Assembly (NCBI RefSeq): GCF_002954405.1
Contig: NZ_MQWC01000004.1
Location: forward strand, 3,536,668-3,600,667
Reading direction: 5' to 3'
Length of the DNA: 64,000 bases
Source: Salinibacter sp. 10B
GTDB taxonomy: Bacteria; Bacteroidota; Rhodothermia; Rhodothermales; Salinibacteraceae
Each line of letters starts with the position of its first letter. Within the stretch, counting starts at the first letter, position 1. A program made the translations under genes and the position numbers. This document shows, in pieces, positions 53,585 to 61,464 of this stretch. The notes below the pieces were generated by a model. The model ran no database searches and was not told the DNA's origin. It was given only the letters and a program-made list of their open reading frames with translations.

Positions 53585-53647
53585 GGTGGATTTCGTATTG
53601 CGTATCCCGTTGGAGAGAAACGGAATACGCAATACACAGCACCTCAC
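53581..53647. repeat. Repeat hairpin in the ilvB/ilvN spacer
   Basis: The core arm gtattgcgtatcccgtt (53596-53612) pairs with aacggaatacgcaatac (mismatch at one position), and an outer 8-bp pair gtgaggtg/cacctcac (53581-53588 and 53640-53647) encloses it. The outer arm includes the ilvB stop codon. The loop is about 7 bases. It belongs to the cgtattg-type repeat family shared with other spacers of this operon. Confidence 0.7.
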
Positions 53648-58561: not shown

Positions 58562-58626
58562 CGTATCTCGTATTGCGTAGGGCGGAAGGGAAGAAACGTC
58601 ATGAAATACGCACTACGAAATACGCC
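58562..58626. repeat. Repeat hairpin in the leuA/leuC spacer
   Basis: The left unit gtatctcgtattgcgta (58563-58579) and the reverse complement of tacgcactacgaaatac (58607-58623) agree at 15 of 17 positions. The loop is 27 bases. It is a member of the cgtattg-type spacer repeats found in this operon. Confidence 0.68.
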
Positions 58627-58686
58627 CTACCGGCACCCGAACATACTGATTTTTGAAGCTTCCTACGTTCAAATACGTCGTCTTCT

Positions 58687-60096
58687 ATGTCCACCGGTAC
58701 CCTCTACGACAAAGTCTGGGATCAGCACACCGTGCGCGAGTTGCCCACCGGCGAAACGCAACTGTTTGTGGGGCTCCACCTGATCCACGAGGTCACCAGT
58801 CCGCAGGCCTTTGGGATGCTTGAGGAGCGTGACCTGTCGGTGGCGTTTCCGGACCGCACGTACGCCACGACGGATCACATTATCCCGACGGCTGACCTGA
58901 CGCGTCCCTTTGGGGATGCACAGGCCGAGACGATGCTGCAAGAGTTAGAGCAGAACACGGCGGAGTACGACATCACATTCTTCGATCCGGATTCCGGCGC
59001 GCAGGGCATCGTGCACGTCGTGGGGCCGGAGCAGGGCCTCACCCAGCCCGGCATGACCATCGTCTGCGGCGATTCACACACGAGCACGCACGGGGCCTTC
59101 GGCTCGCTCGGCTTCGGCATCGGCACCAGCCAGATTCGCGACGTGCTGGCGACGCAGTGCGTGGCAATGGAGAAGCAGAAGGTGCGCCGCATCCAGGTGA
59201 ACGGGACGCTCGGCGACGGCGTCTATGCCAAAGACATCATTCTCAAGATTATCGGAGAGCTCGGGGTGGAAGGGGGCATCGGCCACGTCTACGAGTACGG
59301 TGGCCCGGCCATCGAAGCCCTCGGCATGGAAGGGCGGATGTCCATCTGCAACATGAGCATCGAGGGCGGTGCCCGCGCGGGGTACGTCAATCCCGATGTC
59401 ACGACATTCGAATACTTGAGGGGCCGCCCGCACGCCCCCAGTGGCGAGGAGTGGGAACAGGCCATCGATTGCTGGCAGTCTCTCCGCTCCGACGAGGACG
59501 CGACGTACGATGACAAAGTGACGTTCGACGGCTCGGCCATCGAACCGATGGTGACGTGGGGCATCACGCCGGGACAGGCCATCGGCATTTCGGAGTCCAT
59601 TCCCGATCCGGATGATCTCCCGTCCGGACAGGCGGAGACGGCTCGGAAGGCGCTTGATCATATGGACCTGTCGCCAGGCCGGACGATGCGGGGCGTGAAC
59701 GTGGACGTGGCATTCCTGGGGTCGTGTACGAACGCGCGCATCTCCGATCTTCGGGAAGCAGCGTCGATTCTGAAGACGATCGGGCGACCGGTGGCCGACG
59801 ACGTGCGGGCGATGGTCGTCCCGGGATCGCAGGGCGTGAAGCAGCAGGCCGAAGAGGAAGGGCTGGCCGATGTCTTTCGCGACGCGGGCTTTGACTGGCG
59901 CGGGGCCGGATGCTCGATGTGCCTTGGCATGAATGAGGATCAGCTTCAGGGCCGCGAGCTCTGCGCATCGTCCTCAAACCGCAACTTCATCGGGCGTCAG
60001 GGCAGCAAGGACGGCCGCACCGTACTCATGAGCCCGGCGATGGTGGTGGCCGCGGCGGTGGAAGGGGAGGTTACGGACGTACGAGAATTGCTGTAG
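58687..60096 (+). CDS. leuC: 3-isopropylmalate dehydratase large subunit
   Basis: 469 residues. With LeuD it isomerises 2- to 3-isopropylmalate. The aconitase-type [4Fe-4S] ligands are visible: the Cys of [13 protein letters not shown] and the pair in [12 protein letters not shown]. Substrate-binding motifs include [14 protein letters not shown] near the start, [32 protein letters not shown] and [18 protein letters not shown]. The TGA/TAG context at its 3' end leads into the element carrying the four-helix-bundle gene. Confidence 0.97.
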
Positions 60097-60118: not shown

Positions 60119-60747
60119 GTATTGCGTATTTCGTATTGCGTAGGGGCTCTCAACGTCCGTTTGAGGCACCCTTGAAGATACGCAATGCGCAACACGAAAT
60201 ACGCTCACGACGCAAGCGGAACGTGTTCGAGTAATTCTTCCATCTGTTTGTCGGAATCTCCGTACGATGAGTCAGGCTCTCGAATTTCACCGCCTCGCTG
60301 CCTGGGAATGATGGTGAGGAGAAGACGAATAATCTCCGTCATGAAATTGAGACGATGGCGCGCGACTTGTTTACCCAGCACGAAGCGCCCTTTGTAGTAC
60401 CAGTCTCTGCTTTCGCGAGCGGAGCCCAGTGCATACTCGTAGAATCGTGCGCGATCCTTTCCGGTCCCGCGTGAATAGCCTTCGGCAATGTTTGCCCCGA
60501 CCGAGCCAACGGCCCGGTATAACTGATCAGCAACCTCTTGGGAGCGTTTTTCCTTTTGGAGTGAGCTAGCATCCCGCCAACAGACATCAGAGGCAAACAG
60601 GCTGAGCCGATACACGCGCATTTCCCAAAGCGGATCGTTTTGAATTGAGTCCGGAACCTGCTCCTTCCACGATTCAAACGTCATGGGTTGAGTGCACTGT
60701 CTGGATTGTAGCACCACACGAGATACGCAATACGCAACACGCAACAC
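60119..60747. mobile_element. IVS-like intergenic element with terminal inverted repeats
   Basis: The left end (60119-60142) and the reverse complement of the right end (60724-60747) match at 21 of 24 positions; units cgtattg and cgtattt recur. The left end also forms its own hairpin with 60179-60204, which borders the gene inside, so the gene is bracketed both by inverted and by direct repeats (21 of 24). Between them is an antisense gene for a four-helix-bundle protein with lower GC than its neighbours. The total is 629 bp, splitting leuC from leuD. It is probably an insertion, but no target duplication was proven. Confidence 0.6.
60205..60684 (-). CDS. Four-helix-bundle protein (23S rRNA intervening-sequence family)
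   Basis: 159 residues from the ATG at 60684; the frame continues upstream into the repeat but not as coding sequence. The family motif is AVGSVGANIAEGYSRGTGKD (59-78), followed by RARFYEYALGSARESRDWYY, with two more helices (FMTEIIRLLLTII). This is the TIGR02436/PF05635 four-helix bundle found in intervening sequences of bacterial 23S rRNA and as free genes, often as a pentamer-type toroid that binds nucleic acid. It is transcribed against the leu operon, between leuC and leuD, and is bracketed by operon-type repeats. The role of the family outside rRNA is not established. Confidence 0.88.
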   Translation of the reverse strand: MTFESWKEQVPDSIQNDPLWEMRVYRLSLFASDVCWRDASSLQKEKRSQEVADQLYRAVGSVGANIAEGYSRGTGKDRARFYEYALGSARESRDWYYKGRFVLGKQVARHRLNFMTEIIRLLLTIIPRQRGGEIREPDSSYGDSDKQMEELLEHVPLAS

Positions 60748-60752
60748 ATAAT

Positions 60753-61370
60753 ATGAGCACTGCGAAAGACAAAGTCGTCACTCACGTAAGCGGCTCAGCG
60801 GTTCCGGTGCGGGGCAACGACATCGACACCGATCAAATCATCCCTGCCCGATTCATGAAGGAGGTCACCTTCGACAACATGGGCGAGTATGCGTTTTATG
60901 ATGCTCGCCGGGACGACGACGGCAACCTGAACGACCACGCGATCAACCACTACCCGAACGGGGAGATTATGGTGGTGAACCAGAACTTCGGGTGCGGCTC
61001 CTCCCGCGAGCACGCCCCGCAGGCGCTCATGCGCTGGGGCATCGACGGCCTCATCGGGGAGTCGTTTGCGGAGATCTTTGCGGGCAACTGCCAGGCCCTC
61101 GGCATTCCCACTGCCACGGCCGACCACGACACAATCGAGTGGATCATGGAGCAGGTGGAGGCAGATCCCGCGCTCGAACTGACGCTCGACGTAGAGGACG
61201 AAACCGTGACCGTTGGAGACGAGACGGTGGACGTGACGGTCAGCGACGCCCAGCGCGAAGCCTTGCTCCAGGGCGTGTGGGACACGACGGCGCTCATGAA
61301 GAGCTACATGGACGAGGTGGAGCAGACTGCGAATTCGGTGCCCTACCTGAATGGGTTTTCTGAGTGCTGA
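60753..61370 (+). CDS. leuD: 3-isopropylmalate dehydratase small subunit
   Basis: The ATG at 60753 gives 205 residues; it lies five bases after the right end of the element, so no ribosome-binding site is visible. It is the swivelling subunit that completes the LeuCD active site. The N-terminus (GSAVPVRGNDIDTDQIIPARF) and the central NFGCGSSREHAPQALMRWGI are diagnostic, and the C-terminal half continues as in other LeuD proteins. Insertion of the element between leuC and leuD would separate two subunits that are normally translated together. Confidence 0.97.
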   Translation: MSTAKDKVVTHVSGSAVPVRGNDIDTDQIIPARFMKEVTFDNMGEYAFYDARRDDDGNLNDHAINHYPNGEIMVVNQNFGCGSSREHAPQALMRWGIDGLIGESFAEIFAGNCQALGIPTATADHDTIEWIMEQVEADPALELTLDVEDETVTVGDETVDVTVSDAQREALLQGVWDTTALMKSYMDEVEQTANSVPYLNGFSEC

Positions 61371-61390: not shown

Positions 61391-61464
61391 TTGCGGATTT
61401 CGTATTGCGTATTTGCGGTGATGTCCTCCCCGAGTGCCAGAAATACGAAATACGGAATACGCAA
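61391..61464. repeat. Repeat hairpin in the leuD/methyltransferase spacer
   Basis: The left arm (61391-61414, beginning ttgcggatttcgtattgcg) matches the reverse complement of the right arm (61441-61464) at 21 of 24 positions. The loop is 26 bases. The right arm ends 32 bases before the methyltransferase start. The unit is the same cgtattg/cgtattt type as at the other operon spacers. Confidence 0.72.

Follow-up and report, generated by a model that had tools for sequence, protein, structure and literature searches.

The spacer between leuC and leuD in Salinibacter sp. 10B contains a gene of the PF05635/TIGR02436 family, which raises the question of what kind of element separates the two genes and how its ends are defined. 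This family is encoded in intervening sequences (IVSs) of bacterial 23S rRNA, which are excised as RNA. To our knowledge, no function has been assigned to these IVP/S23 proteins, and the origin and movement of IVSs have been open since their description around 1990.

The gene and repeats between leuC and leuD

The locus was analyzed within the window, the whole stretch of 64,000 nucleotides, in which these features were placed:

58687..60096, + strand: leuC
60119..60142, + strand: left outer arm, three GTATTKC heptamers
60143..60177, no strand: loop of the local hairpin
60178..60204, + strand: internal copy of the right arm (R'), forming the local hairpin with the left arm (z -3.6) and, with the right outer arm, a direct repeat
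60205..60684, - strand: IVP/S23 gene for a four-helix bundle of 159 aa, start codon ATG at 60684, antisense to both leuC and leuD
60718..60747, + strand: right outer arm with the heptamers TACGCAA/CACGCAA; 6-8 nt separate its end from the start codon of leuD
60756..61370, + strand: leuD

The spacer spans 659 nt and has a GC content of 52.8%, compared with 61.0% for the whole window. The product of the antisense gene matches PF05635 (57 bits, cut-off 33.8) and TIGR02436 (68.5 bits, cut-off 24). The AlphaFold model is a four-helix bundle (pLDDT 87). In the PDB, the S23 proteins 2rld and 2gsc match it best, and Avd matches it less well. Both the antisense four-helix-bundle gene and the lowered GC content, which the initial annotation had read from the sequence, were thereby confirmed. 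The start codon is the conserved ATG at 60684, and the longer GTG frame merely extends into the arm. The protein is under purifying selection, with dN/dS values of 0.06-0.18 among orthologues. A search of Rfam returned one chance match below threshold and nothing else.

The outer arms (60119-60142 and 60724-60747) are inverted over 24 nt and 88% complementary (21/24), and their pairing score of 33 exceeds the maximum of 24 found among 1000 dinucleotide shuffles. The terminal inverted repeats of the initial annotation therefore stand, as does its extra internal copy: the stretch at 60178-60204 compared with 60706-60747 forms a direct repeat of 76% identity over 42 nt (21/24 over 24 nt by eye). 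The left arm folds locally with this nearby copy, which competes with the pairing of the outer arms; the local hairpin scores 30 against a shuffle maximum of 24, again among 1000 dinucleotide shuffles. What the initial annotation missed is the tandem nature of the ends, which are arrays of period 7, the left one built of GTATTKC and the right one of the complementary word.

Heptamer words in the genome and among relatives

The genome encodes seven PF05635 genes. All of them are located in spacers and, judged by eye, are flanked on both sides by short arrays with a period of about 7 and a different word at each locus, the period at one locus being nearer 8 or 4. Automated scoring of inverted arms was clear for some of the seven loci and weak for others. 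The proposal to look for such ends beside other genes of the family was thus answered by heptamer-like arrays at all seven, with the qualification that the word is locus-specific. Two of the seven genes (L005 and L006) contain an in-frame TAG, and some IVP copies therefore decay.

Hairpins built from the element words are also dispersed in the genome without a gene, three of them in the window:

53595..53635, no strand: solo heptamer hairpin with the GTATTKC word, as at leuC-leuD
58569..58631, no strand: solo heptamer hairpin in the leuA-leuC spacer, with GTATTKC or GTGATGC at this site in relatives
61391..61464, no strand: solo heptamer hairpin after leuD, the word alternating among relatives

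Exact GTATTKC sites number 19 in the genome, and solo hairpins outnumber the gene copies; most of the heptamer hairpins escaped strict array detectors. A run of approximately 13 perfect GTATTKC units, far above the usual arm length, was observed in one relative (G010:C1:2453994-2454087).

Examination of the same site in 11 genomes of the genus, that of the window included, detected the leuC-leuD gene in nine. The spacers of the other two (G004 and G005) measure 59 and 67 nt and lack the gene. The spacer is likewise empty in G013, outside the genus, where a relative of the gene is located after leuD. The related IVP gene of an outside genus (L048) thus follows leuD, which it reads in sense with, and does not separate leuC from leuD. 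Empty sites, which the initial annotation had suggested looking for, are thus present, and two element clades with different words occupy the site (see below). What it had named as refuting its IVS-like element is therefore not the case. At L041, L045 and L046 the heptamer array and the stop codon of leuC overlap, and the C-terminus of LeuC becomes ...RET.

The genes at leuC-leuD form two clades, each with its own word and with 57-66% identity between them. The GTATTKC clade comprises the window's genome (G000), G008, G012 and G009 (69-79% identity), and the GTGATGC clade comprises G011, G001, G010, G003 and G006 (82-90% identity). In G012, LeuD groups with the GTGATGC species while the element belongs to the GTATTKC clade, so that the histories of element and leuD differ. 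This conflict shows that the element was exchanged between species separately from leuD. An ordinary, vertically inherited small gene standing beside repeats made by slippage would fit its presence in nine of the 11 genomes and the purifying selection on its protein. In this simple form it is refuted by the empty sites and the G012 conflict, as well as by a unit length fixed at 7 across phyla and by clean PIN-domain controls (see below), and we give it practically no chance.

The solo hairpins of the leuA-leuC spacer and of the spacer after leuD carry sometimes GTATTKC and sometimes GTGATGC, not always in agreement with the element, and a single word per operon was ruled out by G003, G005 and G009, whose leu spacers mix the two. 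At pheS-pheT, six species have a gene element with the word GCGAATT, other species have solo hairpins of GTATTKC or AACGTT, and the spacer holds neither in G013 and G014. The initial annotation had regarded solo hairpins as relatives or excised remnants of the element. The common word supports dispersed relatives, whereas the solo words at pheS-pheT, which differ from that of the gene element, lend no support to excised remnants. Among genus orthologues, the word is common in 9/9 cases at 80% identity or above and in a third of cases at 60-80% identity. At most genus sites the words are partly common between species, and the average excess of a locus's own arms is a modest one, with p 0.01 for the pooled data and 0.06 when counted per site. 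Across nine genomes of the genus, the proportions of the two dispersed words are tilted towards the one carried by the leu element (p 0.04, without correction for kinship).

Inverted ends, empty sites and patchy presence would also be expected of a classical transposon or MITE whose terminal repeats are sequence-specific. However, the ends differ among copies in one genome and among orthologous copies, the element contains no transposase, and no target-site duplication was recognizable across the highly diverged leuC-leuD spacers. These non-conserved ends make such an element very improbable. No transposition event was caught among the relatives compared.

The gene and its inverted ends across phyla

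A broad set of 80 loci was obtained by scanning 84,980 species genomes. For the 76 loci with full flanks, each left flank was scored against its own right flank in reverse complement, the right flanks of other loci serving as control. The median score was 29.5 for matched and 17 for mismatched flanks (MWU p 2e-32). The 95th percentile of the control was reached or exceeded by 56/76 loci, where 5% would be expected, and the 99th percentile by 34. Inside the arms, identity was 0.668 at lag 7 and 0.634 at lag 14, compared with 0.22-0.28 at other lags, and period 7 was the best period in 81/158 flanks but in only 5/152 stretches further out. The arms lie close to the gene, at median distances of 39 and 23 nt. 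PIN-domain genes of related genomes, employed as a control, had a period-7 flank in 0/54 cases and an inverted pair in 1/27. Thus, the gene and its inverted period-7 ends recur as a unit across phyla, each locus with its own word, which points to an element class that is widespread and largely overlooked, and the expectation of the initial annotation that repeat ends would accompany the gene family was borne out. An independently drawn gammaproteobacterial set gave the same picture, with 10/11 loci scoring at least 28 and a lag-7 identity of 0.82. On contigs classed as viral, 8/8 family loci scored at least 25; IVP elements with heptamer arms are found on such contigs at L227-L234. About a quarter of the broad loci have no clear arms, and none of the 20 arm-less loci checked is located inside rRNA.

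Read into the element, the words of 38 loci have the common core [AG]TNAG[CT]N; its log-likelihood is 103, and permuted words give 72 +- 1.8. Where this core has A, the word at leuC-leuD has C. The G-rich arm is the 5' arm in 46/56 loci, and the polarity is reversed in approximately 10/56. Among loci of different phyla, words are the more similar the higher the protein identity (rho 0.22, reached by 0/500 permutations). In sampled genome stretches, 11 period-7 arrays were detected in 1.14 Mb of gene-bearing genomes and none in 400 kb of four genomes lacking the gene. Between co-oriented neighbours, the gene lies in sense at 44 and in antisense at 2 loci of the broad set, and at 10 and 4 sites, respectively, in the genus, counted by site.

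These data bear on the alternative that heptamer hairpins are host spacer structures with their own turnover, beside or into which the IVP gene just inserts. Such a reading would accommodate the excess of solo hairpins over gene copies (the 19 exact GTATTKC sites), the different hairpin words found in one spacer in different species, and the layout of leuC-leuD itself, which can be read as hairpin, gene and right arm. On the other hand, word similarity follows protein identity across phyla, the sampled stretches of the four genomes without the gene are free of arrays, and the arms stay close to the gene. We therefore consider host-made hairpins quite unlikely.

Proposed explanation and comparison with known systems

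The leuC-leuD insert is probably one copy of a widespread IVS-type element, located mainly in spacers of co-oriented genes and in rRNA, in which an IVP/S23 gene lies between inverted, locus-specific heptamer arrays. The element would spread horizontally as a unit together with its ends, and what is recognized in these would be their rhythm, with an AG core recurring at 7-nt intervals, and not any single sequence; the pentameric IVP protein is probably the reader. Once transcribed, the complementary arms may fold back into double-stranded RNA that RNase III could cut, as in the Coxiella 23S IVS, which would leave the neighbouring reading frames separate.

The anatomy of that IVS provides the closest parallel. 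It contains a 28-bp stem that is cut by RNase III, with ends mapped by RACE; its 5' arm holds GACAGAT heptamers in tandem, and its ORF is described as decaying (PMC4990558). With this matching anatomy, the kinship to rRNA IVSs that the initial annotation had proposed is well supported by the protein family, the complementary ends around the gene and the heptamers of the Coxiella 5' arm, and RNase III cutting of the leuC-leuD mRNA is, by analogy, plausible. A stricter version would hold that the element is an IVS and nothing else, the outer arms pairing in the leu mRNA, RNase III cutting the stem and selection for pairing keeping the arms complementary. The Coxiella precedent, in which cutting was shown (PMC4990558), and the mostly sense orientation in co-oriented spacers agree with it. 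In the arms, however, mismatches show no wobble preference (G.U versus A.C, 74 versus 78 on the gene strand and 26 versus 31 on the host strand), and RNA pairing is thus not seen as a constraint on them. Moreover, the local hairpin competes with the outer stem, the leuC-leuD copy is antisense, and pairing requires neither a period of 7 nor an AG core. Selection for pairing as the sole explanation is thus unlikely. As wobble pairs are not preferred and the left arm folds with the internal copy, the likeness of the arms in the proposed IVS-type element would be maintained by a copying process together with a reader of 7-nt units, for which the pentameric protein is the likeliest candidate, and RNA cutting would be the consequence that makes the insertion tolerable.

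The element contains no transposase, and no RVT_1 match was found in the genome of the window. A reverse transcriptase acting in trans was ruled out, as it is absent from this genome and from most gene-bearing relatives. A bolder possibility, which we hold tentatively and rate below even, is that such elements form a new mobile class lacking both a transposase and a reverse transcriptase. An AG core recurring every 7 nt, and no fixed sequence, would define the ends, and a pentamer of the four-helix-bundle protein would read them with one subunit on each repeat. The solo hairpins would be the non-autonomous form of this class, and the heptamers reported from Xanthomonas, Nostoc, Beggiatoaceae and the Coxiella IVS would all be its traces.

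Comparison with known systems places the element nearest to the 23S rRNA IVSs of Coxiella and Leptospira, with which it shares a PF05635/S23 protein between complementary ends and a sporadic distribution, seen here as empty sites. Tandem heptamers are found in the 5' arm of the Coxiella IVS and in the ends here. Unlike those IVSs, which lie inside an rRNA gene, this element occupies a protein-operon spacer in antisense, its word varies from copy to copy, and solo hairpins are dispersed. The protein is under purifying selection here, while the Coxiella IVS ORF is described as decaying (PMC4990558). Avd of diversity-generating retroelements has a related fold, and one family member has a PHROG match, but these retroelements have a reverse transcriptase, whereas the genome of the window is without an RVT_1 match. 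REP/RAYT systems combine a Y1 transposase with a conserved hairpin that has a GTAG foot, and by this general description the heptamer arms, which lack such hairpin anatomy, are set apart.

Heptamer arrays without this gene are known, as are the heptamers in the Coxiella rRNA IVS (PMC4990558): intergenic heptameric repeats were reported from Xanthomonas and Nostoc (PMC4692102) and TAACTGA repeats from Beggiatoaceae (PMC4679880). A term search of the latter two papers found no mention of a four-helix-bundle gene. In the open-access papers searched, preprints excluded, no report was found that joins the PF05635 family to heptamer arrays, or to locus-specific inverted heptamers, outside rRNA. A search of the sampled family loci for an identical Xanthomonas-like match found none. 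The Xanthomonas GGGAATC repeats occur in the species that is the source of the S23 structure 2gsc (PMC4692102). The family-wide signature of inverted, locus-specific heptamer arrays with an AG core provides a testable substrate for IVP/S23 proteins and a means of finding many copies of the element. By their description, the repeats of Xanthomonas, Nostoc and Beggiatoaceae resemble the element arms in being intergenic tandem heptamers of typically few units; those of Xanthomonas are often inverted pairs, as the arms are (PMC4692102), and TAACTGA, read as its reverse complement TCAGTTA, fits the AG-core word (PMC4679880). The signature would tie together several heptamer-repeat reports that are so far unexplained.
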